From Spirochaeta cellobiosiphila DSM 17781 (GTDB taxonomy: Bacteria > Spirochaetota > Spirochaetia > DSM-17781): a stretch of DNA of 64,000 nucleotides. The translations under genes and the position numbers were made by a program. The notes below the pieces were generated by a model that had not been told where the DNA came from, did not search any database, and saw only the letters and a list, made by a program, of their open reading frames with translations. Of this stretch, positions 3,532 through 64,000 are shown one piece after another (the stretch's first letter is position 1; the number at the start of each line of letters is the position of its first letter). The stretch is taken from assembly GCF_000426705.1 (NCBI RefSeq), contig NZ_AUFW01000007.1:62001-126000 (forward strand). Direction: 5' to 3'.

Positions 3532-3793
3532 ATGTTTAGCTTTATTCCTCCTGTATTTAATTTCAAGTAATTAGATCAAGTTTCGTTTCCTGATTAATTT
3601 AGTCACAATCAATTGCATCTGTCTAGTTTTTTTTAAAATTGAGATTAGTAGTAATTTTTATCGATAATACTTTACAAATTAAGACTAATTTCTTATTGTT
3701 GACACTAGAGATTAGGTATGGCTTTTTCCTTGCTTTACTTTAGAAACTCTTTTACTCTTAACCAAAGGATATTCCAAAATTTGAGGTGAAATT

Positions 3794-11839: not shown

Positions 11840-12382
11840 ATGAATAACCTTATTATAATGGGAATGAAACACACAGGGAAATCAACACAAGGACGTCGAC
11901 TAGCATTGTTCTATAACATGTCGTTTATAGACCTTGATGAGGTGATTTTTAACCAATACCCCACCACAAATACAACCATTAGAGAGATATACAGAACTGA
12001 GGGAAAAGAAGGTTTCCTGCGTTTAGAACAAGAAGCGGCAAAATCCTGTGCCAAAGAACTTTCAGAAAAAGGCAACAGGATTCTGTCTTTAGGTGGAGGG
12101 ACAATAGATAACCCTATTGCTATGGATTCACTAAAAAATAAAGCCCTATCCATTCATCTTCTTGATTCTGCAGAGGTTCTCTACGAACGAATATCCTTAC
12201 ACGGAATCCCTCCTTTCTTAGACAGTGAAGATCCGTATCATTCTTTTCTGGATATTTATACGAGAAGAACGAAGCTCTACACAGATTGGGCAAATATCAC
12301 AGTTGACATAAAAAATAAAAATCAAGATCAAGCTTTTGATTGTATAAACAACAGGGTACAGGAGTATAAAAATGCCAGGTAG
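11840..12382 (+). CDS. aroK: Shikimate kinase
   Basis: This 180-residue P-loop kinase has GMKHTGKST at residues 7-15 (Walker A), FIDLDEVI at about 30 (shikimate-binding Asp), and LSLGGGTI near residue 78 in place of the usual GGG loop. An Arg-rich lid segment, YTRRTKLY, lies near the C-terminus. It phosphorylates shikimate in aromatic amino acid synthesis. The gene overlaps aroC by 11 nt, which supports the assignment, since the enzymes act two steps apart. The start is ATG; the upstream AAGGTATGACCA gives a modest ribosome site. Confidence 0.88.
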   Translation: MNNLIIMGMKHTGKSTQGRRLALFYNMSFIDLDEVIFNQYPTTNTTIREIYRTEGKEGFLRLEQEAAKSCAKELSEKGNRILSLGGGTIDNPIAMDSLKNKALSIHLLDSAEVLYERISLHGIPPFLDSEDPYHSFLDIYTRRTKLYTDWANITVDIKNKNQDQAFDCINNRVQEYKNAR

Positions 12383-48515: not shown

Positions 48516-48703
48516 TGAAAGGAAACAAAGATATCAGGTACTACTTAGGAACCTCTGTGATTTCAGTATTTACAAGCCAAACACAAATTGTTAAGTACTT
48601 TTGTTAAGCTAAATAAGAAAAAAAGCACAAAAAACTTCAAAATTCGCAAAAAAAGTTTCAAAAAACTTCTCGATATTCCAGAAACAGCTGAGAAGAAGCC
48701 TAT

Positions 48704-49066
48704 GTAAGGGGAAGAACCAAAGCCCACAAGCCAAGGACCCAAGCATACCGGCTTTCACCCCCTCTCCTTACCCCCGAGCGTTGCTCAGGGAAATAAACAA
48801 CAAAAGAAAAGGAACACGACAACAAAGCAACCCAACGCCAAAGGCCACGGCAAAGGGAAACAAGGTTACAGAGTTCCAGGCTTACGAAAAAAATCAGTAA
48901 GCCGCAAGGGCAGGCAAGAGCAAAGTTCAAAAAAGTGAACTTGCCAGAAAGCCGAAAGTCGAAAGATTTGTCCCAAGGACAAGGAAGAGATCTGAAGCCA
49001 AAGCGCAGTGTACTCCCTGTACATGAGCATTTGTCTTCAGATCGATGACGCCGTAGTTGGGACAAA
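48704..49066. ncRNA. Possible structured RNA or complex repeat: run of nested inverted repeats
   Basis: This gene-free stretch holds five consecutive inverted repeats. They are GTAAGGGG/CTCCTTAC enclosing AAAGCC/GGCTTT (48704-48771); CCCGAGC/GCTCAGGG (48773-48790); GGCTTAC/GTAAGCC (48879-48903); AAGTTCA/TGAACTT (48923-48942); and a three-tier hairpin, TTTGTCCCAA/TTGGGACAAA (48967-49066) enclosing GATCTGAAG/CTTCAGATC enclosing TGTAC/GTACA. It ends 28 nt before the HU/DUF4469 start codon. It is richer in G and C than the flanks. Either strand could be the functional one. It matches no RNA family I recognise. Confidence 0.45.
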
Positions 49067-49094
49067 GATGAGACGCCCCAGGAGAGTTATATTT

Positions 49095-49793
49095 ATGATT
49101 AATTACTATTTACACCAAAACAAACTAGGAACAGCAAAAGAAGACAGCCTCTTCATCGCCCGAGTCAAACCCAATCTTCATGTTAACCATGATGATATGA
49201 TTGGCTTGATGGCGAACAAGAACACCACCGTATCCCGACAGGACATTGTGGTTGTTATGGATCTACTAAAGGAAGTGTTAGAAGAACAACTGGTATTAGG
49301 AAATACGGTTAGTACGAACATTGGACGCTTTTATGTATCCCTGGGAGGAGGCTTTGCTTCGACTTCCGATGAATATGATAATACTAAGCATAGCCTTAGG
49401 ATAAAAGCTAAACCTAACACCCAATTAGTGAGTACCGTGCAAGGTAAGAGTAGCGTTTCCAGAGTTCGCTATAATCCTGTGACTCCTGTTATCGATACGA
49501 TCTATGATATGACAAGCCAAAGTTTTAGTTCTGATTTAGTAGCAGGTGCTCTTATTGAACTTAGGGGTAACTTATTTAAGGGTGAAGATTCTGATAAGGC
49601 AGGAGTGTTCTTTGTTAATTCTGATACGGATGTTGTGACTAAGATCAGCTCTGTTTATAGGACTTTGCCTTCTAGTATTTTGCTCTCTATACCCGAGGAT
49701 TTGGAAGCAGGGAATTACACGGTTGAGGTTCGGACTATGTCGGGATCTGTGTTGAGAACTGGATCTTATTATGATGAAGTGACTGTTATGTAG
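49095..49793 (+). CDS. HU-like DNA-binding protein with C-terminal DUF4469 (Ig-like) domain
   Basis: This 232-residue protein has an N-terminal HU/IHF-like fold (residues 1-95: LFIARVKPNLHVNHDDMIGLMA, VVVMDLLKEVLEEQL, GNTVSTNIGRFYVSLGG) and a beta-rich C-terminal domain of the DUF4469 type (about 130-230; IELRGNLFKGEDSDKAGVFF). Such proteins are abundant in Bacteroidetes and spirochaetes and are thought to bind DNA, with an unknown role for the Ig-like part. The start at 49095 is chosen because AGGAGAG lies 8 nt upstream; upstream in-frame ATGs fall inside the hairpin region. Strong terminator follows. Confidence 0.8.
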   Translation: MINYYLHQNKLGTAKEDSLFIARVKPNLHVNHDDMIGLMANKNTTVSRQDIVVVMDLLKEVLEEQLVLGNTVSTNIGRFYVSLGGGFASTSDEYDNTKHSLRIKAKPNTQLVSTVQGKSSVSRVRYNPVTPVIDTIYDMTSQSFSSDLVAGALIELRGNLFKGEDSDKAGVFFVNSDTDVVTKISSVYRTLPSSILLSIPEDLEAGNYTVEVRTMSGSVLRTGSYYDEVTVM

Positions 49794-49825
49794 ATCTCCC
49801 GTAGAACTTGTTTAAGTGATAATTT

Positions 49826-49859
49826 AAGCCCTCTTGGTTACGGCCAAGGGGGCTTTTTT
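49826..49859 (+). terminator. Terminator after the HU/DUF4469 gene
   Basis: A 12-bp stem with one G-T pair (AAGCCCTCTTGG / CCAAGGGGGCTT) and a TTACGG loop is followed by a T run. It marks the end of the core-like part of the window. Confidence 0.92.
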
Positions 49860-49879
49860 ATTTGTCCAGTGGAGAATTC

Positions 49880-50010
49880 TGTAGGTGACAAGTGTGGGTG
49901 AGGGAATTTGTCAATTGAGGAATTCTGTCATTGTCAATTGTCAGGTTGTCTGGGTGACAGGCTAAAATTGTCTGGGTGACAGGCTAAAATTCTGTCAGTG
50001 GCAATTGGGA
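49880..50010. repeat. Cluster of TGTCA/TGACA boxes with a perfect 22-bp tandem duplication
   Basis: The 22-bp unit TTGTCTGGGTGACAGGCTAAAA occurs twice head to tail at 49946-49967 and 49968-49989. Around it are further TGTCA or TGACA words (GGTGACAAG, TTTGTCAAT, CTGTCATTGTCAATTGTCAGG, TTCTGTCAGT), at least nine in about 130 bp. There is no gene in 49860-50287. The arrangement looks like clustered protein-binding sites or decayed tandem repeats. Confidence 0.7.
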
Positions 50011-50161
50011 GGGGGGAGATATGGGTAACAGTTGAGGTTCAGGATGGGATGGCAAACCCAATTATGTCACTTTTTACGAACATATATTCATATTGATCTA
50101 ATCTGTCTTTCATATGGCCCTCTGAACAGTTGTTAATATTGTTCATAACTATTGATTTTTT

Positions 50162-50192
50162 TTTACATTGATTGAGGATTTGCGTTTATAAT
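50162..50192 (+). promoter_or_regulatory. Possible promoter for the PHP-ATPase operon
   Basis: TTTACA at 50162 and a consensus TATAAT at 50187-50192 are 19 nt apart, slightly long for a vegetative promoter. They lie about 95 nt upstream of the PHP-ATPase start in the gene-free approach to the accessory region. Confidence 0.4.
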
Positions 50193-50287
50193 GGGGATTA
50201 TTTTGTATTTTTTAGGATTTTATTTGATCACGGGAAAAGTTGGGATGTAGTATGTTACATTCACAAAGGACAAAATTGAGGAGTAAT

Positions 50288-52426
50288 ATGAAAATTGATA
50301 TCCATGCACATACAAAAAAAGTAAAAAGCGGTGATGCTCCTCAAAGAAATATAGATGTTGAAAGATTTTATCAAATAATTAGAGAAACAGACGTACAAAT
50401 TTTAGCAATTACGAACCATAATCATTTTGATTTAGATCAATATTCAAGTTTTAGGGAAAAAGTAGAAGAATATTGTCAAATTTGGCCAGGTGTAGAATTA
50501 GATGTTCAAATAAAAGACGGTAGAGGTCATTTATTAATAATTGTTAATCCTACAAATTCTGAACAATTATCAGAAGAGATGGAAATATTACTTTCTCACT
50601 CGAGTGAAGAAAACTTATCGTTATCAATACAACAGGTAACTAAAATTTTTGACAAATTAGATCCAGTATATATATCTCATTATAATGTAAAGAAACCAGC
50701 ATTTTCAGATGACGATATAGAACTTCTTTTAAGCTTAGTTCAAAATAAAAATAGAGTTATAAAAGAAGCTATTGATTCGATTTCATGTGGAATCTTTTTA
50801 AGTCATGGTCACAGATCAATTTATGGATCTGATGTTACCAATTGGGATGACTACATTAGCAAATCAGAAGATCTACCGAATTTAAGATTACCCGTGGACA
50901 GCTTTGAACAATTTTGTTTTTTGTTACAAAAAGATGATTCCACAATAAATAGCATTTTAGAAAAGAAAAATTATGAAACAATAGTCCTTAATCCTTTTGG
51001 AGAAGATGAGCCTATTTCACTAAAGATTTACAATGATATAAATATTCTATTTGGATCTAAAGGAACAGGAAAAACTGAAATCTTAAAATCATTGAAAGAG
51101 TATTACAACAATCGTGGTATGAAAACAACCGTATATGAATCAAATAATGTTAATCTTTATGATCATTATGATATAAAAAGAAATAGTTTTAGATTTAATT
51201 TTGAACAAAACGGTATTGATTCTTGTGAGGAAGAAATTACATTTTTAAGAGATTCTACAGAATCAGGAATAACAAGTATTTCACAATACAAAAATTATTA
51301 CACGAATGAGATTCGAAATAAGATAGCTAAAAAATTAAAAATTGATAAATTAAAACTTATTGACGATTCTGAATATCATAGAAAATTCTCAAAAATTGAT
51401 GAATTATCACGAACTATAGATGATTTCTATAAATACTACTCAGATAACAAATTGTTTAAGGAAATCATTGGAGAGGTAATCCTTCAAAAATTTGATGTAT
51501 TATTTAATGAAATTTACGATCTTATTGATAATGATCTTGAAGAAAAATATATAAATTATCAATCAACCAAATTTTTTAATACAATTGTTAATGTATTCAA
51601 TAAACAGGTGAGTCGAAAAACTGGACAACCCAGAAAACCTACAAGTTGTGGTTTTAAATCTTACGCGAGTAATAGAATTAATGTTGAAAAATCAATAAAT
51701 AAAATTACAGATACACTAGAAATAAATATAAAACCAGCGAAAGAGCTCGTTGGTAATTTAGGAAAAAAAGGTAACCTATATTGCCAAACAAATGTTAAAT
51801 TCCAAAATGGAAAAATTTCTAAAAGTGAATATAAACCGATTATCGGCCGACAAAAAAATCCACAAAAATACTTTGCACGAAAATTATATAAAGTGAAAAG
51901 TAATGTATATGAAAGCCAGCTTTTTGAGCATATTTCAGAGTTAATATCTGATGAGTATGAAGAAATCACGAGTCTTGAAGATTTAATACTATTTTACAGA
52001 CATTTCTCAATTGAAGATGAATTATATAATCCTTCAAATGGTGAATCCTCAATGCTACTATTATACAATGAGTTAAAACAAGAAAAAGATGTCTACATGA
52101 TAGATGAACCAGAAAAAAGCTTAGGAAATGATTATATAAGTGATGTTATCGTTCCTTTATTAAATGAACATGCAAAACAAGATAAAAGAGTCATTATAGC
52201 AACTCATGATGCTAATATCGCAGTGCGTACTTTACCATACAATTCAATATATAGAGAGCATGATATAAAACAATATAATACGTATGAAGGAAATCCATTT
52301 TCTAATAACCTTATTTGTTCTAGTGATATAACAAAAAAAATTGACTGGAAGGAAATCAGTATGAGAACACTAGAAGGTGGAAAAAATGCATTTGGGGAAA
52401 GAGGTAAAATTTATGGAAATGTATAA
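50288..52426 (+). CDS. PHP-domain / SMC-like ATPase fusion (TrlF- or Ppl-like defence protein)
   Basis: This 712-residue protein has an N-terminal PHP domain: HAHT at residues 5-8, TNHNHFD near 40, GVELDV near 70 and GSDVTNWDDY near 180 supply metal ligands. An ABC/SMC-type ATPase follows: Walker A FGSKGTGKTEIL near 253, a signature-like NGESSMLLL near 582, Walker B MIDEPEKS near 603, and H-loop ATHDAN. This architecture is known from single-protein antiphage systems (Ppl class) and TrlF-like ATPases. The PHP part probably cuts phosphodiesters in an ATP-gated way. Start ATG at 50288 follows GAGGAGTAAT. It overlaps a small partner gene by 14 nt. Confidence 0.8.
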   Translation: MKIDIHAHTKKVKSGDAPQRNIDVERFYQIIRETDVQILAITNHNHFDLDQYSSFREKVEEYCQIWPGVELDVQIKDGRGHLLIIVNPTNSEQLSEEMEILLSHSSEENLSLSIQQVTKIFDKLDPVYISHYNVKKPAFSDDDIELLLSLVQNKNRVIKEAIDSISCGIFLSHGHRSIYGSDVTNWDDYISKSEDLPNLRLPVDSFEQFCFLLQKDDSTINSILEKKNYETIVLNPFGEDEPISLKIYNDINILFGSKGTGKTEILKSLKEYYNNRGMKTTVYESNNVNLYDHYDIKRNSFRFNFEQNGIDSCEEEITFLRDSTESGITSISQYKNYYTNEIRNKIAKKLKIDKLKLIDDSEYHRKFSKIDELSRTIDDFYKYYSDNKLFKEIIGEVILQKFDVLFNEIYDLIDNDLEEKYINYQSTKFFNTIVNVFNKQVSRKTGQPRKPTSCGFKSYASNRINVEKSINKITDTLEINIKPAKELVGNLGKKGNLYCQTNVKFQNGKISKSEYKPIIGRQKNPQKYFARKLYKVKSNVYESQLFEHISELISDEYEEITSLEDLILFYRHFSIEDELYNPSNGESSMLLLYNELKQEKDVYMIDEPEKSLGNDYISDVIVPLLNEHAKQDKRVIIATHDANIAVRTLPYNSIYREHDIKQYNTYEGNPFSNNLICSSDITKKIDWKEISMRTLEGGKNAFGERGKIYGNV

Positions 52427-52700
52427 TGCTGAAATAACAGAGGACGGAGAAAATAAATTTCTTACTTTAGAATTACCAGACAATGAATTACATATACCTC
52501 TAACTGAAGATGAAGAACAAAAGATAAAAGAAATATTTAATATACTTATTAAGGAATTAAAAAAAGGTGAATTTAACTTTCAATTTGAACAAACAAGAAA
52601 TAACCTCTATCAAAACATATCAGCAGAATATATAAGTCACCTCAATATAGAATTATCAGCAGTATATAATGAACTTAATGATTTTGGATTATTAGATTAA
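52413..52700 (+). CDS. Small acidic partner protein of the PHP-ATPase
   Basis: The product is 95 residues, soluble and acidic, with an early beta segment (ITEDGENKFLTLELPDNELH) and two helices. No family is recognised. It starts inside the end of the PHP-ATPase gene (14-nt overlap) with GAGGTAAAATTT as ribosome site; an upstream GTG at 52377 is less likely because it has no spaced ribosome site. Coupled translation suggests it works with the ATPase, possibly as an inhibitor or sensor. An attC-like site begins 15 nt after its stop. Confidence 0.7.
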   Translation: MEMYNAEITEDGENKFLTLELPDNELHIPLTEDEEQKIKEIFNILIKELKKGEFNFQFEQTRNNLYQNISAEYISHLNIELSAVYNELNDFGLLD

Positions 52701-52714
52701 AAGTAACACATGGG

Positions 52715-52822
52715 ATATAACAAAAAAATGAACCTGTCAATATCCGTTGTCATGCAAATTGCTTGCGCAATTTACACGCCAATCCCTTTGGGACGATCTT
52801 TCAGGTTATTTTGGCGTTATAT
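52715..52822 (+). mobile_element. attC-like recombination site A (complete)
   Basis: The outer boxes ATATAAC (52715-52721) and GTTATAT (52816-52822) are perfect complements. Inside them are 5-nt unpaired spacers (AAAAA and TTGGC). Inner boxes AATGAACCTG (52727-52736) and CAGGTTATT (52802-52810) pair fully once the G at 52730 is bulged out. This R''-spacer-L''-loop-L'-spacer-R' order with an extrahelical base is the hallmark of integron attC sites, whose bottom strand folds for the integrase. The 65-nt middle contains AAATTGC/GCAATTT. The R' core GTTATAT deviates from the GTTRRRY consensus at one position. Confidence 0.72.
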
Positions 52823-52911
52823 TGATATAGGGTAAAAGTTAAAATATGATTTAATGGGATAACCATCAAATATTTAACAATATGAGATAATCGACTAAGA
52901 GGTATGTGAAA

Positions 52912-55116
52912 ATGAAATCTATTACAAGTTTTGCTGATATTGATTCTCTAAGTCCAAATGATTTTGAGTCTTTTGTAAAAGATGTTTTTGAAAAATCTGG
53001 TTGGAGTGACGCATATATTACGAAAGTTGGAGTAGATTTTTCACATGGTGATGGTGGTGTAGACATTATTGCATATAAAAGAAAAAGGAAATTTGGAATA
53101 GAAGTTAAGCAGAGATCCATAAAAAATATTGTAGGAGTAAAAGCTCTTAATCAGGCCGTAACTGGAGCAAAATTATATAATGCAGAACAAGTTGTTTTAG
53201 TAACAAACTCATATTTTTCTTCGGAAGTAGTTCAAAGAGCTTTAACCTTAGGCGTTGAATTAGTTGATAGAGATAATCTACAAGATATGTGGATAAAAAA
53301 ATCATCTGAAATTGGGCGAAGTGATATCAAACCTAGATTATATCAAAAAGCTGTAATTGATGATTGTATTGAACACACAGAAAATGGCGCAACAAAGCTA
53401 TTGATTGAAATGGCTACAGGGTTAGGTAAAACTTACACTTCTGCATTATTGATAAAAGAAATTCTGAATATTTATCCATATAAGAAAATTCTTTTCCTTG
53501 TACATCAACTAGAAATAATGAACCAGTCTTATATTGCATATAAAAATGTTTTTGGTATTGGGAACTATAGTTATGCTGCATCTGTAGGTGGACAATTGTC
53601 TAATTTTAGTGAAGATTTTTCGTTTGGAGTGGTTAATTCTATTTATACCAATTTACCAAAGCTACAAAAAAATCTGTTTGATATTATTGTTATTGATGAA
53701 GCACACCATGCTCCGGCAAACATGTATACCCAGGTTTTGCATTATCTTTCACCAAAACTTCTAATAGGAATGACTGCTACTCCTTTCAGAGAAGATGGAA
53801 AGGATGTTTTTCATGTTTTTGGTGGTTTTGATGGGCACATAGGAAAATATGATTTAGTTTGGGCTCTAAAAAATAGAAGACTTGCATTTCCTAAATATGT
53901 TGTAATGCTCAATGATTTGAATGAGAAAGAGATTTCAAAGATTGAAAAAGGACTTTCTTTAGAAGATTTAGATAAAAAGTTTTTTCTTAATAAGAAAGAT
54001 GATGAAGTTATTAGATTAATTGAAGAAGCGGTAGAACAAGAAAATATTGAAAATCCCAAAGCCATCGTGTTTTGTCAGTCAATTGAACATATCAATCATT
54101 TAGTTCCTTTTTTTAAGCCAGGAACGGCAACTTACGTACATTCAAAAATGGCATCAGAGCAGAGAAGAAGTAATATAAGGAATTTTAGGGAACATGAGTT
54201 TCGTTATATTTTAGTATGCGATCTTTTTAATGAAGGAATTGACATACCTGAAACCAATATTCTTGTTTTTTTGAGGAATACAAAAAGCCGAAGAATTTGG
54301 TTACAGCAATTAGGACGTGGATTAAGAAAGACACCAAATAAAGAATATGTTCATGTCTTTGACTTTGTTGGTTCATTAGAAAGAATTAATGAGATTAATA
54401 GGTTGCAGAATGATTTAGGTGGTATTAAGAAAAAAGTCGAAAGCTACGATCTCGATGACGAGATCATAATTAACGATTTTATTGAAGTCAAATATAGTAA
54501 AAATGCGGTTCAAGTTCTTACTTTACTTGAAGAGCAAAAATGGAAATTGCTTCCTGTAATAAGGGCAAGAGAAATACTAGAAAATTATTATACTGTTAAC
54601 AATTCAATCCCTACTCCTGAAAAGATGTGTGAAGAATTAAAAGACATTTCAACAGATCAAATAAATACTCATTTTGGATCATATTGGGGCTATATTACAG
54701 CTGTATTTGGTAAGAATGAATCAATTTATTGCGATCTAAAAAAAAGATATGAAGAATGTTGTCGTAAGTTTAAAAGAGTCAATACAATACCTAAACCTTT
54801 AGATATTATTGTTGATACAAGAGTTGAAGGACTTGATATATTTGATTTAAAGAATATAAAAGATTTTAGCTTTCTCGAATCAGATACATTTAAACAAAAT
54901 GATACTACTTTAGAGATAGAAAATAAAAATGGAAGCATGAGACAGGAAGATGAAAATAGTTTTTTTCTAGAAATAATGAATGTCTTTAAAGATTTCAAAG
55001 ATCTTAATAAATTGACTGAAGAACAATTATCCTATATTGATGCTGAGTTCACTTCAAGATTTAATTTTTTAAATGAGTATAAAAAATGGGGTGAGAGTAG
55101 ACATGAGTCTAACTGA
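52912..55116 (+). CDS. Mrr-type nuclease fused to a superfamily 2 DEAH helicase
   Basis: This 734-residue protein has an N-terminal restriction-endonuclease-like (Mrr) domain at about residues 8-115. GDGGVDIIA near 47 supplies the Asp and GIEVKQR near 62 the E-x-K pair. A full SF2 helicase follows: MATGLGKTYTS near 167, VIDEAHH near 260, GMTATPF near 286, and QQLGRGLRK near 463. The last 250 residues match nothing I recognise. Proteins of this kind act in restriction-like phage defence. The ATG at 52912 is preferred to GTG 52906 because AAGAGGT is correctly spaced from it. It overlaps the next gene by 14 nt. Confidence 0.85.
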   Translation: MKSITSFADIDSLSPNDFESFVKDVFEKSGWSDAYITKVGVDFSHGDGGVDIIAYKRKRKFGIEVKQRSIKNIVGVKALNQAVTGAKLYNAEQVVLVTNSYFSSEVVQRALTLGVELVDRDNLQDMWIKKSSEIGRSDIKPRLYQKAVIDDCIEHTENGATKLLIEMATGLGKTYTSALLIKEILNIYPYKKILFLVHQLEIMNQSYIAYKNVFGIGNYSYAASVGGQLSNFSEDFSFGVVNSIYTNLPKLQKNLFDIIVIDEAHHAPANMYTQVLHYLSPKLLIGMTATPFREDGKDVFHVFGGFDGHIGKYDLVWALKNRRLAFPKYVVMLNDLNEKEISKIEKGLSLEDLDKKFFLNKKDDEVIRLIEEAVEQENIENPKAIVFCQSIEHINHLVPFFKPGTATYVHSKMASEQRRSNIRNFREHEFRYILVCDLFNEGIDIPETNILVFLRNTKSRRIWLQQLGRGLRKTPNKEYVHVFDFVGSLERINEINRLQNDLGGIKKKVESYDLDDEIIINDFIEVKYSKNAVQVLTLLEEQKWKLLPVIRAREILENYYTVNNSIPTPEKMCEELKDISTDQINTHFGSYWGYITAVFGKNESIYCDLKKRYEECCRKFKRVNTIPKPLDIIVDTRVEGLDIFDLKNIKDFSFLESDTFKQNDTTLEIENKNGSMRQEDENSFFLEIMNVFKDFKDLNKLTEEQLSYIDAEFTSRFNFLNEYKKWGESRHESN

Positions 55117-57433
55117 AAAAAATAGAAAAATACTTGAAAAAATTGAAAAATTCTGGACTCGAATAAGTAATGAATTTGAAAGTATCGAAATATATCCCGA
55201 TGATCTTGAGAAATTGACTCCTTCTTTATTATCTGAAGTAAAAGGTTTTGGGGCTAAATATATTTCTGATTATGAAGAATTATATTATAATTTACTTAGT
55301 GCGACTGAAAGGCCTTTACTTAAAGAAGAAAAAAAGGCTTCCCTGAATTTTCAATTATCAGAACTCTGGATACAACAGAAAGACCTTCCAGTTCTTGAGA
55401 AATTATATGTTCTATTTGGGGACGAATTTTATAATTTTGAATATATTCATTCTCTAGATCTTAATAATATTCCAGGACTTGGAACAAAGTATAAAGACAG
55501 CATATACAATTTACTATATAGTCTAGCAGATAAAAATGAAGAATATCATAAAATGGAATTACTCATTAAAGAAATAGATTCAGTCTATCTTAAAGATGAA
55601 AGTCAATCTGTTTTATTGAAAAGATATCTTTGTGAATGCTCGAAAATAAGAGATGATTCTACATTAAAAAAGATCATTTTTATTGATTTTAGATGTCTTA
55701 TTGGCAGAATTAATAAAAATGATCTTATCAAAGTTGTTCAATTTAGAGATAAAATAATATGCGAATATTTGAAATTTAAAGAAGGAAACATTTCAAATAT
55801 TGATTCTTTTTTTTACTGGTCTTATGAAGAATATTTAAAAAAAGGATTTGATATAATGCAGGACTTGATCAAACTGCATTATAATATTTCATCAATACTA
55901 GATAGTCGTTCTTTTGAAATTTATAAACATAGAACAGGCTTTACTGACGAAATAAAAGTCTTGGAAGAGATTGGAGAAATATATGGTGTAAAAAGAGAAC
56001 GTATTCGACAAATACAGGTAAAGAATATTAATAAAATACAGAAATGTTTACCTGTTAATCCTTCTGACTTATCGTTGATATTATTGAATGAGCTCGAGAA
56101 AAATGTAAATAAAATTGATGAGCTAACACAATATTTTTCAGACGAAAATTTTTTTTGCCTATATCTAGATTCATTGAGTAACAACGAAGATGGTTTTTGG
56201 AAAGATCAATTTTTTCCAGTGTTTGATTACAAAATCTTCGATGAATTGATTCTAACCCAGCCATCACCATATAGTTACCAAACAATTTCCGAAACAATAT
56301 ATAATTATTACGGATATGAGGGATTTCAACTAAAACGAGTTTTTCACAATGAAATAAAGAAAATATTTCAAGTTGATGAGTCCGGATATAGTCCTAAAAG
56401 CTTAAGTCAGCATTATGCAATAACCCATGTATTAGCAAGTTGGCCAAACGGTTTAAAATGGAATACCGTTTTGGAGATTTCAAATAATAGAAAGTTAAGA
56501 GACAAAGATTTTGATATTAATAGGTTGATTGGTGATCGCTTTCTACAATCCGGTTATGTATACTTTTCAAATAGATCAAAAATTAGTGAGTATCGTCATA
56601 CTAAATTTCTTCCAGGTTATGATAAGCTATATGATGACGGTCTAAAAAGATTACGAGATTTTTTAGAATTAAATGATAGGGATGAATATACTCTTGGAGA
56701 GTTCTTGGAAACGGATGATATTTTGAGTTTCGGTGTCACCTATTATGATTTCAGGTACTGGATCAGAGAAAATGGAATTAATTATGGTATATATTTTAAT
56801 GGGAAATCAGGTTCAGATATCATAAGTCTCAAAGAAATTGATGCAAATAATAAGTATACTCAAAAGCAATCAGTCTTAAATCTTATAGAGAAAAATAGTG
56901 GATTAACTTTTGTTGATGATATTGTATTTAAGATAAGATCGAAGTCTTATGGTCATGCATATTATTATCTCAATGAACTAATTGATGAACAAAAGATTTT
57001 ACATTATAAAGAAAGAGCATTCTGTAGCCCAAAATATCTATTTAAGAACGATATAAAAAAAGATAAAATTATAAAGATAATTACGAATTTACCATTTGAT
57101 AATCATAAAATTATAGAAGTTGACTATCTCAGAATGATTGCAAATCGATTACTCAGTAAGAGTCATTCAAAAATCCTCTATTCTAGCTTGTTGAATTATT
57201 TTTCTGATGAATTAAACATTTATAAATCATTTGGATTAGTTTCAAAATCACCTATTCCTTACTTAGGATTCATTTCTATTGCAAATGAGAATTGTGATGA
57301 AAAAATGAGTGATAAAGAAAATATTGAGAGATTAAAACAGGTTGTTTTTACAACAGAAGAAGCTTATCGTGTTGTATTAGCGAAATGGAAGCAAGGTCAA
57401 AAAAACGTAAGAGGTATAAGCGATACAATATAA
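55103..57433 (+). CDS. Large protein with helix-hairpin-helix motifs and a sigma-70 region 4-like HTH
   Basis: The product is 776 residues. Two helix-hairpin-helix-like motifs lie near residues 41-60 (VKGFGAKYISDYEE) and 121-140 (IPGLGTKYKDSIYNLL). At about 283-315, LEEIGEIYGVKRERIRQIQ is almost a textbook sigma-70 region 4 helix-turn-helix. The C-terminal 450 residues are of unknown fold, with repeated winged-helix-like patches. There is no nuclease or ATPase motif. It begins within the helicase gene and its stop overlaps attC-like site B. It presumably gives DNA binding or target recognition to the nuclease-helicase. No named system with this pair comes to mind. Confidence 0.78.
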   Translation: MSLTEKNRKILEKIEKFWTRISNEFESIEIYPDDLEKLTPSLLSEVKGFGAKYISDYEELYYNLLSATERPLLKEEKKASLNFQLSELWIQQKDLPVLEKLYVLFGDEFYNFEYIHSLDLNNIPGLGTKYKDSIYNLLYSLADKNEEYHKMELLIKEIDSVYLKDESQSVLLKRYLCECSKIRDDSTLKKIIFIDFRCLIGRINKNDLIKVVQFRDKIICEYLKFKEGNISNIDSFFYWSYEEYLKKGFDIMQDLIKLHYNISSILDSRSFEIYKHRTGFTDEIKVLEEIGEIYGVKRERIRQIQVKNINKIQKCLPVNPSDLSLILLNELEKNVNKIDELTQYFSDENFFCLYLDSLSNNEDGFWKDQFFPVFDYKIFDELILTQPSPYSYQTISETIYNYYGYEGFQLKRVFHNEIKKIFQVDESGYSPKSLSQHYAITHVLASWPNGLKWNTVLEISNNRKLRDKDFDINRLIGDRFLQSGYVYFSNRSKISEYRHTKFLPGYDKLYDDGLKRLRDFLELNDRDEYTLGEFLETDDILSFGVTYYDFRYWIRENGINYGIYFNGKSGSDIISLKEIDANNKYTQKQSVLNLIEKNSGLTFVDDIVFKIRSKSYGHAYYYLNELIDEQKILHYKERAFCSPKYLFKNDIKKDKIIKIITNLPFDNHKIIEVDYLRMIANRLLSKSHSKILYSSLLNYFSDELNIYKSFGLVSKSPIPYLGFISIANENCDEKMSDKENIERLKQVVFTTEEAYRVVLAKWKQGQKNVRGISDTI

Positions 57434-57532
57434 CAAACGCATTCAACTGACAACTTTTTGTCATAGTTTTTGAGTTCTCAAAAACTACGCCACCCCTTCG
57501 GAATAAAATTGCAGGTGATTCGAACGTTAGAC
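57428..57532 (+). mobile_element. attC-like recombination site B (complete)
   Basis: The site begins ATATAAC at 57428, overlapping the stop codon of the upstream gene, and ends with the canonical core GTTAGAC at 57526-57532 (GTTRRRY). Spacers are AAACG and CGAAC. Inner boxes ATTCAACTG (57441-57449) and CAGGTGATT (57512-57520) pair at seven of nine positions. The middle holds a perfect 11-bp hairpin, TAGTTTTTGAG/CTCAAAAACTA. Its left end (ATATAACAA) and right end (CAGGTnATT, then CGTTA) match site A, showing that the two belong to one family. Its first bases also resemble Vibrio cassette sites (TATAACAAACGC). Confidence 0.78.
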
Positions 57533-57559
57533 GGACCCTGCGGGCACAAGGAGTTATAG

Positions 57560-57834
57560 TTGATACTAGAAGTAGCTTTTTTACATATAAAGAAAGGTCA
57601 GAAAACTCGTTTGAGAGTTCATTTTCAGAAGCTCAACATATTATTTCTCAAAGATTGGAAAGATGTATTGAGACAAAATCTAAATACCTTTTGCTAGTAA
57701 ATTAGGAAAAAATAGAAGATCATCAAATTGGATTCAGGAAATCGGACCTATATATAAAATGGAAAAATCTATTACACCGCTTCTACGAACCATTTCCTAT
57801 CGTAGAGCATTTTGAAATGGGAATAGAAAAATGA
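57560..57834 (+). pseudogene. Antibiotic biosynthesis monooxygenase (ABM)-domain protein, decayed
   Basis: After AAGGAG, a TTG start gives ILEVAFLHIKKGQK. The match then jumps frame to FESSFSEAQHIIS, skips roughly ten codons, continues LERCIETKSKYLLLV, meets TAG where a Trp is expected, and resumes as IEDHQIGFRKSDLYIKW and FYEPFPIVEHFEMG. This order matches the small ABM-fold monooxygenase family. There is thus one frameshift, one short deletion and one nonsense codon. Its terminal TGA overlaps the next gene's ATG. It is the first gene after attC-like site B. Confidence 0.7.
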
Positions 57835-58265
57835 TTAAGATAAGGCCACCAAAAGAAAATGAAGAAATTGAACTGGCTGAAATTAGAGCCAGGTCGATGC
57901 GAGAAAGTTTAGAGTCTGTAGGTAGATTTGATGAAACCCGTGTAAGAAAAAGGTTTTTCGATTCATATGATAAAAATGAAACATATGTTGTCGAGGAAAA
58001 TGCTGATGTGATTGGTTTCTTTTCTATTTCAGAAAATGAACATGAATATTATTTAAAACATCTCTATATAGATCTTAACTACCAGAATAAAGGATTTGGA
58101 ACTTTAATCTTGAGACATATTATTAACACTTTTTCTGAGAAAGAAATAAAATTGAACGCGCTTAAGGGAAGTAAGTCAAATTGTTTCTATTTAAAAAATA
58201 ATTTTGTAAAAATCGATGAAGATGAATATGACAATTACTATATTAGGAAAATAGATTTCGTCTGA
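57831..58265 (+). CDS. GNAT-family N-acetyltransferase
   Basis: This 144-residue protein has the GNAT fold: an N-terminal helix pair, a central strand VVEENADVIGFFSI, then LKHLYIDLNYQNKGFGTLIL with the acetyl-CoA loop (Q-N-K-G-F-G) near residue 84, and the C-terminal SNCFYLKNNFVKID. Substrate is unknown. GNAT genes are among the commonest integron cassette cargo. Its stop codon lies in a small imperfect hairpin (GTCTGACAAC...GTTATGTAGAC, 58260-58285) that could be a worn recombination site. Confidence 0.85.
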   Translation: MIKIRPPKENEEIELAEIRARSMRESLESVGRFDETRVRKRFFDSYDKNETYVVEENADVIGFFSISENEHEYYLKHLYIDLNYQNKGFGTLILRHIINTFSEKEIKLNALKGSKSNCFYLKNNFVKIDEDEYDNYYIRKIDFV

Positions 58266-58388
58266 CAACGCTATGTTATGTAGACTCTAGAATATATAAT
58301 ATTTTATTGGTTGAAACGATTTATTTCAAAAAGTAGAATTGTTCAATAAACTTACGGTTATGATGACCTATAAAAGGATTTAGAAGTT

Positions 58389-58850
58389 ATGAATGATATT
58401 AAAATAAAATGTCTAGAAAGTGATGAGATTAATAATGTAGTTGAAATGATTATCAAAGATAAAAATGAACAAGGTCTTGAAATAACCGAAGAACAATCAA
58501 ATAGTATAAAAAACCAATTAAAAGAATTAGTAAATTCTAATAACGCATTAACTTTAATTGCTAAAAATAATAAAGATATTGTAGGTTATATAAATGGACA
58601 CATAATCCCCTTCCCACTTATCATGAATAAAGAATGTTATATAAGTTGTTTATTAGTCAACTCAGAACAACGTGGAAATAAAATAGGTCACCAACTTTTA
58701 GTTGAAATTGAAAATAAAGCAAAAAAAATAGGATGTTGCAGATTAATACTAAATAATCCTAAAAATGCAGATTCATATAAAAGACATTTCTACGCAAAGG
58801 AAAATTTTACTGAAAGAGTTCAATTTGCAAACTTTATAAAGACAATATAA
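58389..58850 (+). CDS. GNAT-family N-acetyltransferase
   Basis: This 153-residue protein has GNAT features: LIAKNNKDIVGYINGHI near residue 55, then the beta4-alpha3 region YISCLLVNSEQRGNKIGHQLL with the acetyl-CoA loop (QRGNKIG) near residue 97, and a Cys-Cys-containing strand after it. It shows no close similarity to the preceding GNAT. AAAGGATTTAGAAGTT precedes the ATG. Its end reads AATATAAG, one base from the ATATAAC box of the attC-like sites. Substrate unknown. Confidence 0.85.
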   Translation: MNDIKIKCLESDEINNVVEMIIKDKNEQGLEITEEQSNSIKNQLKELVNSNNALTLIAKNNKDIVGYINGHIIPFPLIMNKECYISCLLVNSEQRGNKIGHQLLVEIENKAKKIGCCRLILNNPKNADSYKRHFYAKENFTERVQFANFIKTI

Positions 58851-58888
58851 GTAATGTTCATTAATTTCGTTAATAGACAAACCTATAA

Positions 58889-59155
58889 CTAGAAGAATAT
58901 GCTGAAAGCAATACAGATATATCAAGAGTAATAAAAATACTTTTAATTCGTGATTTAGTTGAAATATATACTGGAGATATATTCTTATACGATAAAAAAG
59001 GTCGAGAAGATGTAAAACTTCATGAGCAAAGAACAACTAATAAAATTTTTGGATTATTACCTAAATCTCAGATCATAAAAAAGACAGGTTTTATTAAAGA
59101 TTACTCTTCAGAACTATGGGATTTTACTTTAGATATAATTAAAACCAGACACTAA
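58889..59155 (+). pseudogene. Start-less gene fragment, unknown family
   Basis: A frame of 88 codons opens right after a TAA and ends at TAA 59153. It encodes LEEYAESNTDISRVIKILLI, then DLVEIYTGDIFLYDKKGRED and a LWDFTLDIIKTRH end. No start codon with a ribosome site is available, so this is most likely the C-terminal remainder of a longer gene. Codon use is like the neighbours. No family is recognised. Confidence 0.5.
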
Positions 59156-59218
59156 AGTCGATATTGTTTTATTGAAATAAATAATATATCTTATAATTTT
59201 TTAATGTGAGGATTTGGA

Positions 59219-59791
59219 ATGAAAACATATTATATAAGAGATATTCAGGAAAGTGATTTAAAATTATATAGAGAATTAATTCAGCCAGATAAAGAATATC
59301 ATAAATTTAATGGCCCCTATTATAAGAATAAAACTGAAGAAGAAATAGACGTATATATTCAAGAAATACGAAATAATCTATCTGAAAATAAACTCCCACA
59401 AAAGTTCAAAAAACAGATTGTTGATTCAACAAATGAAAATCTCGTTGGTGAAGTTAACTGGTATTGGAAATCAGAAGAAACTAATTGGTTAGAAGTTGGA
59501 ATTGTCATTTTCAATGATAAATATTGGGGAAAGGGTATTGGATCTATAATACTCCCTGAATGGATAAATCAAGTATTTGATATGTTTCCAGAAATCATAA
59601 GAATAGGTTTAACAACATGGTCTGGAAATCTAAGAATGATGAAATTAGCTGAAAAACTTGGGTTAATAAAAGAAGCAGAATTTAAGAAAGCTAGAATAGT
59701 AGATAATAATTATTATGATTCAATAAGCTATGGCATCCTAAAAGAAAACTGGTTACAAATTAAAGAACCTACGGTAAGCACACCATTATAA
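59219..59791 (+). CDS. GNAT-family N-acetyltransferase (RimJ/RimL-like)
   Basis: This 190-residue protein resembles the RimJ/L-type acetyltransferases: YYIRDIQESDLKLYRELI at the start, VGEVNWYWKSEETNWLEVGI in the middle, the acetyl-CoA loop YWGKGIGS near residue 102, and the NLRMMKLAEKLGLIKEAE tail. Relatives modify ribosomal protein N-termini, antibiotics or other amines; the substrate cannot be inferred. GTGAGGATTTGGA precedes the ATG. Confidence 0.87.
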   Translation: MKTYYIRDIQESDLKLYRELIQPDKEYHKFNGPYYKNKTEEEIDVYIQEIRNNLSENKLPQKFKKQIVDSTNENLVGEVNWYWKSEETNWLEVGIVIFNDKYWGKGIGSIILPEWINQVFDMFPEIIRIGLTTWSGNLRMMKLAEKLGLIKEAEFKKARIVDNNYYDSISYGILKENWLQIKEPTVSTPL

Positions 59792-59825
59792 TTGTGTACT
59801 GGTTCTAATACTTGTGGGACTTCAA

Positions 59826-59933
59826 ATTGTAAAGGGAATGATTGTTATAGGTTCTGATTACTGGCCTGTTCATACCGCATCATATAATAATATGCGAAAA
59901 TTATCGAAGAATATAATAGATTTAATTAGATAA
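59826..59933 (+). pseudogene. Gene fragment, unknown (possible flavodoxin-fold C-terminus)
   Basis: The readable frame gives MIVIGSDYWPVHTASYNNM and ends KNIIDLIR at TAA 59931. A second frame just upstream reads FxGSNTCGTSN-like residues, as if one base had been lost between them. The pattern is reminiscent of the end of a flavodoxin/NADPH-dependent oxidoreductase, but the evidence is thin. No start codon with a ribosome site is visible. Confidence 0.35.
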
Positions 59934-59947
59934 TTTTGACTATTTTA

Positions 59948-60133
59948 ATGATCCTATTTACAGTTTGTTGTATGGGGGAACTAGTAAGTCGGTATTTTTT
60001 TAACAAAATTTTTATTTTAAAGGATGCAGATTTGTTTGATTTAATCAGTTATCCATTAGCCTTTTTGATAATTTAGATCATCATATTTTTTAAGAAAATA
60101 CTTAAAAGAGACAATAAAACAGATGAAATATAA
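59948..60133 (+). pseudogene. Small membrane protein with an internal stop
   Basis: An ATG frame reads MILFTVCCMGELVSRYFFNK, has hydrophobic segments, and hits TAG at 60074-60076. The same frame then continues for 18 codons (IIIFFKKILKRDNK) to TAA at 60131-60133. Reading through the TAG gives a two-helix protein of 60 residues. The last TAA lies in the ATATAAC box of the truncated attC-like site, the same gene-to-site geometry as site B, which argues that the full frame was once the cassette gene. Confidence 0.45.
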
Positions 60134-60170
60134 CAATCACTTGAAACTTTCAGCCTACTGTCATGCTTTT
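60128..60170 (+). repeat. Truncated attC-like site C (left half only)
   Basis: It starts ATATAACAA at 60128 like sites A and B. It has a 5-nt spacer, an inner-box-like CTTGAAACTTTCAG, and the TGTCATGCTTTTTGCTT segment that aligns with TGTCATGCAAATTGCTT in site A and TGTCATAGTTTTTGAG in site B. No CAGGT...GTTRRRY right half follows; the HNH gene starts at 60185. The right side was probably deleted. Confidence 0.55.
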
Positions 60171-60184
60171 TGCTTGGATAGAAG

Positions 60185-61018
60185 ATGGTAGATTTCACCA
60201 CTATACTAGTTGGAAATAAATATGATCGACCTTATCTTGCAAAACTCTGGGGCTATAAATCATTCAATGCAATAAGCAGAGGGGTGTTCACACCACAAAA
60301 TCAAAAAATTATCGTCCTATTTATAACCAAAGAAAAACAAGAATCATTAACTCAATATGAAGACCATATCGATGAGGATATTTTACATTGGGAAGGTGAA
60401 AAGAAGCATGGGTCAGATAAAAGGATATTAACAAAACAGGATGATATACATGTATTTTATCGAGATAGACATCACTCAGATTTTACCTACAAAGGAAAGG
60501 CATTTCTAAATAAATTTAGGTTGTATAATGATCGTCCTTCAAAATTTCAATTTGTATTAGTTCAACAGAAAAGATCCTACGCCGATATTATTGCCGAAAT
60601 CGAATCCGAATATTCTGTTGGTGAAACAGAAAAGAAAGCTATAATAAGTGCTAGGAAAGGACAGGGACTATATCGGAAAAAGTCGATAGATCTGTGGAAG
60701 GAATGTTCTGTCACAAAATTTTCAAAAACGAATTTGCTAATTGCTTCTCATATTAAACCTTGGAAAGTATCAAATAATGATGAGCGAATTAATCCATATA
60801 ATTCGTTATTGCTTATTCCCACATTAGATAAGTTATTCGATCACGGTTACTTAAGTTTCAATAATCACGGTAATATATTAATCTCAAATAAAATATCAGC
60901 GGCTGATTATCAAAAAATACATATAAGTGAAGACCTAAAACTGAAAATAGTTCCAGAAAAGACAAAGCCTTTTCTTGAATATCATAATGAATATGTATTT
61001 GATTTAATTAATGCCTAA
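60185..61018 (+). CDS. HNH endonuclease with DUF3427-like N-terminal domain (restriction-type)
   Basis: This 277-residue protein has an N-terminal module with WGYKSFNAISRGVFTPQN, LTQYEDHIDEDILHWEGE and IHVFYRDRHHSDFTYKGKA, resembling the DUF3427-type domain often fused to defence helicases. A C-terminal HNH_2 nuclease follows: GQGLYRKKSIDLW, LLIASHIKPWKVSNNDE, and LLLIPTLDKLFDHGYLSF. It is probably a restriction-like nuclease, possibly for modified DNA. The start ATG has only AGAAG upstream. It lies just after truncated site C. Confidence 0.82.
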   Translation: MVDFTTILVGNKYDRPYLAKLWGYKSFNAISRGVFTPQNQKIIVLFITKEKQESLTQYEDHIDEDILHWEGEKKHGSDKRILTKQDDIHVFYRDRHHSDFTYKGKAFLNKFRLYNDRPSKFQFVLVQQKRSYADIIAEIESEYSVGETEKKAIISARKGQGLYRKKSIDLWKECSVTKFSKTNLLIASHIKPWKVSNNDERINPYNSLLLIPTLDKLFDHGYLSFNNHGNILISNKISAADYQKIHISEDLKLKIVPEKTKPFLEYHNEYVFDLINA

Positions 61019-61039
61019 GTGGCATTTATGAATCATTTA

Positions 61040-61076
61040 GAGTTCGACAAAGCCTATGTCATGGTTTTTGCAGAGG
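61040..61076 (+). repeat. Partial copy D of the attC-like site family
   Basis: The sequence AGAGTTCGACAAAGCC followed by TATGTCATGGTTTTTGC, 22 nt after the HNH stop, aligns with the inner-left part of site C (CAGCCTACTGTCATGCTTTTTGC). Neither the ATATAAC box nor a GTTRRRY core is present. Confidence 0.4.
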
Positions 61077-61096
61077 TCCCGGGCGAGGAATAATAA

Positions 61097-61197
61097 AAGA
61101 ACCAAGGGACAAGGGCATTGGAGCTTCACAGCGTTGCAAAAACGCACGCCATGCTTTCGCTACGCTCCAGCACGGCTTTGCGACTCAAATGGTTCTT
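61097..61197. repeat. Imperfect inverted-repeat element of about 100 bp
   Basis: Outer arms AAGAACCA (61097-61104) and TGGTTCTT (61190-61197) are perfect complements. Nested inside are TGGAGC (61119-61124) / GCTCCA (61164-61169) and AGCG/CGCT. It is more GC-rich than the surrounding AT-rich DNA. It could be a small non-autonomous element, an unrelated recombination site or a bidirectional RNA hairpin. Confidence 0.6.
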
Positions 61198-61290
61198 ATA
61201 TTCAATTAAATCTAAACATTTGAAAAAAATATCGCAAATAGAAGAAAAGAAAGACAGAAATTTAGAATTGTACTAAAATGGCAAATTGAA

Positions 61291-61812
61291 ATGACTAAAA
61301 ACATTAAAATACGTCTATATATATCATTATTCATAATTATGTTTGCTATTATCTTCCAAGCTGTACTTTTTCCATTTAATACGATAAAAGCGGAAAACGC
61401 GGTTATAAAACTACTTGATATATACAAAATCAGTGAATATAAAATTAATAGCAATCTAACAAATAAAAAAGTAGATTTTTATTTGTCAATTAATGACGAA
61501 AAAGATATTCAATCTATAGAGTCTGATATAAGAGAGATTGCAGATCGTTACTATAGAGGATTTGAAAGTGAAATTATCGTCTTAACACATCATTCAAGCT
61601 TTACTACAAATAAACCAGAAGGTACATTTTTTAGATTTGTATCAAAATATGAAATTGATTCGAAATTAAGAATGAATAACCTCGAAAACATAAAGTATTA
61701 TATCTTTACAAGTGAAATTGAATCGCAAACTAAAGTGACTTTTTCAACAAGTGAAGAAGTTCCACCTTCAGTCTTAGATGAAATATATTTAATATTGAGG
61801 AATTATGAATAG
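61291..61812 (+). CDS. Membrane-anchored protein of unknown function
   Basis: The product is 173 residues, with one N-terminal membrane helix (residues 8-28) and an exported soluble domain of alternating strands and helices. No family is recognised. The lack of a Cys argues against a lipoprotein. It overlaps the next gene by 8 nt and begins a run of three membrane-protein genes. Ribosome site is weak. Confidence 0.65.
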   Translation: MTKNIKIRLYISLFIIMFAIIFQAVLFPFNTIKAENAVIKLLDIYKISEYKINSNLTNKKVDFYLSINDEKDIQSIESDIREIADRYYRGFESEIIVLTHHSSFTTNKPEGTFFRFVSKYEIDSKLRMNNLENIKYYIFTSEIESQTKVTFSTSEEVPPSVLDEIYLILRNYE

Positions 61813-62254
61813 CAATGTAAATAATCCAATAAAAGTGAAAGGATGGCTTTTAGTTCTATGTATATATAATACTATTATAAATCCAATTCTTCTTATAATT
61901 GGAACTATCGTACCTAAAAATACTGAGGGTTTATTTAGCTATTCAAACTCTCATCAAATGAACTTAGTTTTTCAGTATATAATACTATTTTCAGCAATAA
62001 TTTCACTTATAGAATTCATTAGTGGCATTTTCATATGGAAAAAGAAAGAATATGCTATCTATTTTTATAAGTTTGTACTAATTATCTCATTAATTATACA
62101 GATATATTTAAACGTATTTTCATTAAGTGTATTTAATGAAATGTCATATATCGTTATAGAAACTTTCTTTAAAAATTTATTGAGAGATTTTATCTGGTTT
62201 ATTATTCCATGGCAATTTATAAAACATTCAGCAGATATAAAAAAATATTTATGA
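61805..62254 (+). CDS. DUF2569-like membrane protein
   Basis: This 149-residue protein has four membrane helices. The start IKVKGWLLVLCIYNTIINPI resembles the GGWLLL opening of DUF2569 proteins, and the helix spacing fits. Function of the family is unknown. It overlaps the gene on each side, so the three membrane-protein genes are probably one operon. Confidence 0.65.
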   Translation: MNSNVNNPIKVKGWLLVLCIYNTIINPILLIIGTIVPKNTEGLFSYSNSHQMNLVFQYIILFSAIISLIEFISGIFIWKKKEYAIYFYKFVLIISLIIQIYLNVFSLSVFNEMSYIVIETFFKNLLRDFIWFIIPWQFIKHSADIKKYL

Positions 62255-62871
62255 AAAATGATATAAATTACCCTAATGAAATAAACTATTTAATAATATC
62301 TGTTAGTTTCTACATTTATTCTCTTTTCGTAAAATTATTACCTGAAATATTACTATTATTTAATGATCATATTGTAATTACACCTCTTCACTATGAGTAC
62401 GGCTGTATTTTTTCTTATTTAATATTATCAATGTTTGTTCCATTAGTTATATTTAAGAATATCAATTTATATAAAAAAATAATTATCTTATTCTTATCAA
62501 TATCTATGGCTGATATTTTAGGAATATTTTTTACAAGTTATAAATATGCTCGAATAAATAAATTGCTAATGTTTTTACTATCTCTGGACCGTTTAGAATT
62601 TTATATGACAACACTAGTTTTTTCGATTTTTATTGTTCTAATATATAATATCAGAGAGATATCTAAAATTAAAATTCTTTTTGTTTCAATTATGACTGGG
62701 CTATTAACTTCTGGAATTAAAATAATGTTTGCCTTCATACAAAATGAACATTATAAGTTTTCAAGTATAGAACATTTATTACTTGGGATTACAATAATCT
62801 CCTATGTTTATTTTTTCATTGGCTATGGATATAGTCACATTTCAAAAACAAATTATGTTAATCAAAACTAA
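62251..62871 (+). CDS. Polytopic membrane protein of unknown function
   Basis: The product is about 206 residues with six or seven hydrophobic helices and few charged residues; no family is recognised. The ATG at 62251 overlaps the DUF2569-like stop (ATGA). An in-frame ATG at 62209 would add 14 residues. Neither has a clear ribosome site, so translation is probably coupled to the upstream gene. Confidence 0.6.
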   Translation: MKNDINYPNEINYLIISVSFYIYSLFVKLLPEILLLFNDHIVITPLHYEYGCIFSYLILSMFVPLVIFKNINLYKKIIILFLSISMADILGIFFTSYKYARINKLLMFLLSLDRLEFYMTTLVFSIFIVLIYNIREISKIKILFVSIMTGLLTSGIKIMFAFIQNEHYKFSSIEHLLLGITIISYVYFFIGYGYSHISKTNYVNQN

Positions 62872-62913
62872 AAATCTAACCGTAAACACTTAAAAATATA
62901 CGGAGGATCCTAT

Positions 62914-62982
62914 ATGTATGGTTCGATAAGCTGTGTATATGAAGCTTATTGTAAAAAATGTGGATTTTCAATTTCTAATTAA
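62914..62982 (+). CDS. 22-residue micro-ORF with strong ribosome site (possible truncated zinc ribbon)
   Basis: ACGGAGGATCCTAT precedes an ATG encoding MYGSISCVYEAYCKKCGFSI and ending in SN before TAA. The CKKCG knuckle is like the first half of a zinc ribbon. The excellent ribosome site and short length suggest either a small protein or the stump of a longer gene. Positions 62983-63162 hold nothing recognisable. Confidence 0.4.
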   Translation: MYGSISCVYEAYCKKCGFSISN

Positions 62983-63162
62983 ATGGTAAAATAAATAAAC
63001 TTTCTTAAAAGATAATAGTGAATAGATTTTTAAAATATTCCTTAAAGACACTTTTCATAAATAATAAGAAACTAATATGAAAAAAGGTATTCCTGAAAAG
63101 AATTGTCTCTATGGTGTATTTTAATCGTCACCTTTTCTTCCTCTACTGCCTGCCAGCAAAAC

Positions 63163-63720
63163 CTAAGATCGTTTTTCAAGTGCTTCTTTAAGAAGCCCCT
63201 TTATTTTCTCATCCTTGATATCACAAACCAGATCCCATGGTGAATAATCATGGTTGTCATACTTTAAAGGGTTCGCTCCCTTCTCAAGAAGTAACTTAAC
63301 AGTTTCAAATCTTTTAGACCCCACAGCTTCCATGAGTGGAGAGCATCCGTCTGAATCGGAGACATCAACATCAAAACCTGCATCCATAAGCTTCAGTAGA
63401 ATATTGTTATGACCCTTTGTTGCCGCGGCATGCATTGGTGTTCTATTGCTGTCGCCCTTCTCCTTTTGAGCGCCAAGACTTATAAGATAATCTACCGTTT
63501 CTTCAAATCCGTTCTGGCTGGCATAAAAAAGTGATTTTCCAATTCCAATACCATATCCATCGGTGTCTTTGCCTTTAGAGACAAGGAATTTCAAAACTTC
63601 AAGATGACCGTCCTGAGCGGCCATAGCCATGGCACCATCAATTTCACGCCCCTCTTCATAAATCTTCTTTACTTCTTCAAGATCTCCTCTGGATGCTGCT
63701 TCTTCAAATTCGTACGACAT
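63163..63720 (-). CDS. Cytoplasmic ankyrin-repeat protein
   Basis: This 185-residue protein is made almost wholly of about five ankyrin repeats; AAQDGHLEVLKFLVSKGKD, SNRTPMHAAATKGHNNILLK and DSDGCSPLMEAVGSKRFE are clear. There is no signal peptide, unlike the ankyrin protein at 30731. GAAGGAATAAAAA precedes the ATG. Its base composition is nearer the core than the neighbouring AT-rich genes, so it may mark return to the chromosome backbone. Partner unknown. Confidence 0.85.
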   Translation of the reverse strand: MSYEFEEAASRGDLEEVKKIYEEGREIDGAMAMAAQDGHLEVLKFLVSKGKDTDGYGIGIGKSLFYASQNGFEETVDYLISLGAQKEKGDSNRTPMHAAATKGHNNILLKLMDAGFDVDVSDSDGCSPLMEAVGSKRFETVKLLLEKGANPLKYDNHDYSPWDLVCDIKDEKIKGLLKEALEKRS

Positions 63721-64000
63721 TTTTTATTCCTTCTTAGATTTTATAAGTTCTGTGAGTTTTGCTTTTTCCTTAGGGTAATTTAATGATAGGAAAAGTTATA
63801 TTTTCTGTCAAAAGGAATTTATGTCAAAAATGATTGTTTACGAAAAAAAGCTGTCTAAATGACGAGAACAGTATGAGAATATTCAGTTCTCAGAATAAAG
63901 CTCTTCCAGATGCAAATACGAGAGAGGAAAATATTATTTTCTATGCGATCAAACCCCACCCAAGGAGGGGCCCTATCAACCTTTAACATGGTGGACAGAA
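63721..64000. other. Right edge without a supported gene
   Basis: No frame here has a convincing start and ribosome site plus family resemblance. Short open frames exist near 63870-64000, and the last 40 bases could be the beginning of a feature that continues past the window. Confidence 0.5.

Follow-up and report, generated by a model that had tools for sequence, protein, structure and literature searches.

A probable decayed chromosomal integron with large defence-like cassettes in Spirochaeta cellobiosiphila

The AT-rich region near the right end of the analysed DNA (the window, 64,000 nucleotides of contig NZ_AUFW01000007.1 of Spirochaeta cellobiosiphila DSM 17781, here C1) is very probably a decayed chromosomal integron, with an attI site, a divergent and almost wholly deleted intI gene, and cassettes that in part still carry their attC sites. 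A preliminary description of this DNA had proposed an integron-type cassette cluster, a CALIN, between 50288 and 60170. The class was right, but the attI site had been missed and the locus is larger: the array starts at attI (50254) and ends at about 135.4 kb of C1, ~9 kb beyond the right end of the window. Since attI and a 27-nt remnant of intI are present at the left edge, we regard the locus as a degraded integron and not only as a loose attC cluster. The earlier wording that the cluster is without an integrase holds for function, whereas the platform itself persists.

Two intact attC sites were located, both on the forward strand. Site A (52715-52822) has ATATAAC as R'' and GTTATAT as R' with an extra G in L'', and site B (57428-57532) has ATATAAC as R'' and GTTAGAC as R'. 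The R''/R' core boxes with AAC and GTT are present in both, and the attC stem is a covarying imperfect palindrome with L boxes and an unpaired column in L''. The shared end motifs noticed before are real, but the motif common to the right ends, CAGGTnATTnnnnCGTTA, has four and not five free bases before CGTTA, and therefore the exact pattern proposed with five matched neither A nor B, even at up to 3 mismatches. The spacers between the R and L boxes are 3 nt in the aligned structure instead of the 5 nt given earlier. The bulged G of site A is indeed an extra base, located on the gene-sense strand, so that the bottom strand which folds carries a C. Both sites had been placed at or just after the stop codon of the upstream gene, which is approximately so: the stop codon TAA of the gene upstream of B sits within R'' of B, and A starts ~15 bp past the stop of a 107-aa ORF. 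A third site, C (about 60125-60165, forward strand), is truncated, as had been recognised. Its left half aligns with the left halves of the intact sites, with which it has the CCTACTGTCATG loop in common, and the right half is absent. A further attC at 61.03-61.18 kb in the window found no support from folding.

To evaluate the stem, 13 sites of the genome, A and B included, were aligned on their arms with the unpaired column in L''. The named stem paired in 84.2% of the cells; shuffles gave 64.2% and slid partners 30-40%. It contained 56 two-sided changes, and 0 of 500 shuffles were as high, although this measure is biased towards structure because the sites were chosen partly by palindromy. 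For this reason nine other sites of the same genome, without A and B, were used to build a covariance model (R1), which was run genome-wide. Site A was matched with 48.0 bits (E 6.9e-7, 3.95 Mb) and site B with 28.0 bits (E 0.037 genome-wide, weak on its own), and in a smaller search space of 293 kb the E values were 5.1e-8 and 0.0027, respectively. Both sites are thus at the positions originally assigned to them, beyond chance. At least 25 matches to R1 were found in the genome, A and B among them, with 150 of 554 candidates scored. The matches listed were confined to contigs C1, C2, C9 and C24, which are the contigs with attI, and the R1 matches had the same orientation as the local attI, rather than being scattered in unrelated intergenic positions. 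A focused model search of selected stretches revealed more attC sites on these four contigs, including C1 beyond the window.

Many weak palindromes occur in AT-rich DNA, and a simple palindrome scan could not separate the sites from shuffled sequence. Nevertheless, it is extremely improbable that the sites arose as palindromes by chance or belong to a repeat that has nothing to do with integrons. Sites of similar type occur close to full-length intI in other genomes, and we consider this reading refuted: the listed matches cluster on the four contigs with attI and follow the orientation of the local attI throughout, the stem covaries, and the sites are linked to attI. An Rfam scan matched no attC-like family. 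With filters off, R1 gave local alignments in the window that were short and without meaning, a 12-bit piece of A among them. That run was set aside because the default search recovers full sites.

Integron integrases recombine the folded bottom strand of attC with a double-stranded attI. The bottom strand of site A folded at -23.8 kcal/mol (z -5.65) and the top strand at -16.3 kcal/mol (z -2.4), while the two strands of site B folded almost equally well. The energy of the bottom strand was the lower one at 5 of 5 sites tested, strongly at A and weakly at B. Judged from sequence, A and B are attC sites, and their recombination by an integron integrase is predicted.

The attI region was found at 50113-50256 (forward strand), where the GC content, about 0.40 before, drops to 0.22-0.31. 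With 161 bp from this left edge of the AT-rich DNA as query, an element of ~150 bp was identified in seven genome copies: a pair on each of C1, C2 and C24 and a single one on C9. The crossover core GTTACAT is located at 50254-50260, with the cut between 50254 and 50255 (G|TT). In the alignment, all seven copies lose similarity exactly at G|TT, right after GATGTARTATGTT, and insertion of different cassettes at the attI G|TT would leave such an end. A TATAAT at 50187-50192 is conserved, and TATAAT or TATAAA is found in the attI region across the copies as a candidate cassette promoter; a consensus promoter scan of the region found none. An exact attI pattern had no match among the genome contigs searched, and the element was not found in the relatives. 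We conclude that the window contains an attI site, with predicted activity.

The intI remnant in the window consists of 27 nt of the 5' region (50087-50113, reverse strand), reads ATGAAAGACAGATTAGATCAATATGAA, and was aligned with the copies upstream of other attI sites. A functional intI next to the array is absent, and only broken copies exist elsewhere: no intact intI was found in the assembly (96% complete, 29 contigs), and the genome has no IntI above the family cut-off. Fragments of intI lie upstream of three attI copies, so that integrase sequence does occur in this genome beside the same attI element. They are divergent from the following cassettes, which is the arrangement of most integrons. 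Missing from them are residues ~70-124 and ~175-274 of the family model, among these the segment with the conserved histidine-arginine box. The copies on C2 and C24 have both deletion junctions in common, over 0.9 kb at 92% identity. The C9 copy matches these junctions in part and retains the normal 3' end of intI, SRKNKLGIVSPMDNL. At the second C1 platform only small fragments are left (L063:7330-7435). Because the surviving copies have internal deletions in common, they would derive from one already broken ancestor or have been homogenised by gene conversion.

Sites A and B, and more attC sites on the contig, stand without a neighbouring integrase, and the threshold for a CALIN is at least two attC sites (PMC9024848). 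Off-target insertion has been proposed as an origin of CALINs (PMC8618304), and the absence of an intact intI at the locus would agree with cassettes inserted by an integrase acting from elsewhere at a place that was never an integron. However, the cassettes start exactly at the attI core, which is conserved, with 27 nt from the 5' region of intI beside it. These features make such an origin very unlikely and argue for a former integron.

The window array is one of four decayed arrays in the genome, found on C1, C2, C9 and C24. Beyond the cassettes described below it continues as AT-rich DNA (61019-64000, forward strand, and on to the end of the array) with attC sites, remnants and a second attI (L063:7409-7576). 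On C1, C2 and C24, the first attI is located downstream of a copy of an HU-like/DUF4469 gene and is followed by cassettes; on C24, 2.7 kb of other sequence lies between the gene copy and this attI. The last attC on C2 and on C24 directly adjoins a broken intI at the 3' side of the gene, and this intI is followed by its own attI and further cassettes. The platforms are near-identical, with different cassettes behind each. The C2 array also contains a transposase gene of two overlapping ORFs, IS30-like by eye (L017:6863-7905, reverse strand), and partial copies of the transposase end are found at L017:10030-10113 and 12366-12447.

The HU-like DNA-binding/DUF4469 gene that flanks the platform in the window (49008-49793, forward strand; PF14848, PF14734) is part of a block including its leader (48588-49900), of which full or partial copies occur at about nine places, including C2, C4, C6, C19, C24, C26 and C29. 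Three copies adjoin integron platforms and several are located at contig ends. As this repeat breaks several contigs, missing sequence at contig ends has to be taken into account. The start of the block, GTTAAGT, was considered as an integron crossover and dropped, since the repeat is also found away from integrons. The gene belongs to a separate repeat family and is not itself an integron. A sub-threshold Rfam match to ctRNA_pGA1 at 49793-49870 (E 0.0064, under the gathering score) overlaps with the terminator that follows the HU-like gene and probably reflects no more than this hairpin.

With 29 contigs, several ending in the HU block, and an assembly 96% complete, an intact intI could lie in an assembly gap and work on the arrays in trans, and the different cassettes behind near-identical platforms would be expected of such a living integron. 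We consider this unlikely, because full-length IntI was not found in the assembly, and both the truncation of attC sites and the debris of transposons point to decay.

The platform was multiplied within the genome, to seven copies on four contigs. At four places the sequence on the 3' side of the broken intI starts with TTATCTAC or nearly so, immediately after an attC or after a right arm of attC-like form. Two intI-attI copies, with the same internal deletions, are flanked by G|TT at both ends, the attI core on one side and attC|TTATC on the other, and two more are truncated but have the TTATC end. In place of the normal intI 3' end kept by C9, these copies have ~65 bp from TTATC to the intI fragment, and this segment may therefore represent the beginning of an old cassette that was fused by a deletion. 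Movement of the intI-attI unit as a cassette is possible and is not needed to explain the history of the arrays. That the broken unit travels in this way, as a non-autonomous platform inserted by an integrase in trans and thereby multiplied, appears quite improbable.

Cassette 1 (50255-52816, forward strand, 2.56 kb) extends from the attI core to the core of attC A. It encodes a PHP plus AAA ATPase protein (50288-52426, forward strand; TrlF-like, PDC-M49A with E 3e-31) and the 107-aa ORF (52377-52700, forward strand). By sequence resemblance, the first protein is a relative of TrlF and of the candidate defence family PDC-M49A. A relative search with this protein gave no match, and no other genome yielded a cassette homologue that carries its own attC. 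Cassette 2 (52817-57526, forward strand, 4.7 kb) encodes an Mrr-type nuclease-helicase (52906-55116, forward strand; Mrr_cat, ResIII, Helicase_C) overlapping a 786-aa protein with a sigma-70 region 4-like segment (55073-57433, forward strand), and these proteins are mREase_IV/PbeA-like and weakly MzaA-like. The third unit (57527-60124, forward strand) contains three GNAT acetyltransferase ORFs (57831-58265, 58389-58850 and 59219-59791, all forward) with Pfam acetyltransferase domains; no intact attC was found between them, and the unit has none. An HNH endonuclease gene (60185-61018, forward strand; PF13391 with E 5e-10, HNH/REase_II) is joined to truncated site C. Several of the cassette contents thus resemble anti-phage defence genes, and a defensive role may be suggested from the protein matches. 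In the C24 array, the first gene past the second attI (L018:5290-7050, reverse strand) matches PDC-S39 with E 1e-83, and an OLD/GajA-like ATPase gene split into two ORFs (L018:4803-5168 and 3448-4611, reverse strand) lies between attC sites.

The precise G|TT joints and the strand bias are observed here, and the proposed mechanism follows established integron biology. An integrase, when available, would have joined bottom-strand attC to attI at G|TT and so placed the cassettes beside attI. Several platforms would have existed, and an integrase, since lost or hidden in an assembly gap, would have exchanged cassettes. Duplication or gene conversion may have spread the broken intI copies. Most likely the arrays are frozen now, and the cassettes may persist for their contents.

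Integrons had been said to occur in some spirochaetes, and 21 of the 78 genomes of the class indeed have a full-length IntI above the family cut-off. Attachment sites matching R1 were found in 9 of the 21 genomes with full IntI versus 4 of the 56 without, plus the S. cellobiosiphila genome. With the model built on sites of the S. cellobiosiphila genome, attC sites were found near IntI in L068, L069, L077, L080, L081, L082, L085 and L086. The intI gene points away from the array in L077, L080, L081, L082 and L086, and toward it in the Treponema-like L068 and L069, which is the Treponema arrangement (PMC3607928). We compared the extrahelical base closer to the R box, and on the sense strand it is G in 17 of 18 own attC sites and in most sites of L077, L081, L082 and L086, and C in L068, L069 and L085. 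The folded bottom strand of the own sites thus carries C, where G is the usual base. Sites with C at this position are excised by several integrases (PMC3053210), and C here is therefore a known variation.

Pseudo-integrons, CALINs and the loss of intI in spirochaetes have already been described, and the locus belongs to this known kind; what is new, if modest, is four arrays with seven attI copies and intI lesions in common. A spirochaete lineage without close relatives among the compared genomes joins those with integrons, and a chromosomal integron system has been caught in decay, with several platforms, dead integrases and large defence-like cassettes still carried. The common intI lesions beside different cassettes allow a test between two histories of the platforms, seeding in trans and homogenisation by gene conversion.

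Published work treats CALINs as degraded integrons (PMC9024848, PMC8618304), and the locus supports this view of them as relics. Of the intI genes surveyed, about one third are pseudogenes (PMC2426708). CALINs and pseudo-integrons are alike in having attC clusters without a working integrase, but here attI is kept, the platform occurs seven times in a single genome and the intI lesions are held in common. The Treponema chromosomal integrons share the spirochaete host, the attC arrays and, in T. phagedenis, the loss of intI with attC sites kept (PMC3607928). In Treponema, however, intI faces attI and the cassettes (PMC3607928), whereas the remnants here are divergent from the cassettes, and the attC sites here are longer, with another extrahelical base. 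The attC of dfrA1 and its variants (A-N7/8-C or T-N6-C; PMC3053210) likewise have a bottom-strand C nearer the R box, which is the rule here. Cassettes with attI-derived ends are documented in mobile integrons (PMC12901181); they are alike in using attI as a cassette end and offer a precedent for a travelling intI-attI unit, but they carry resistance genes, whereas the unit here would carry a broken intI.
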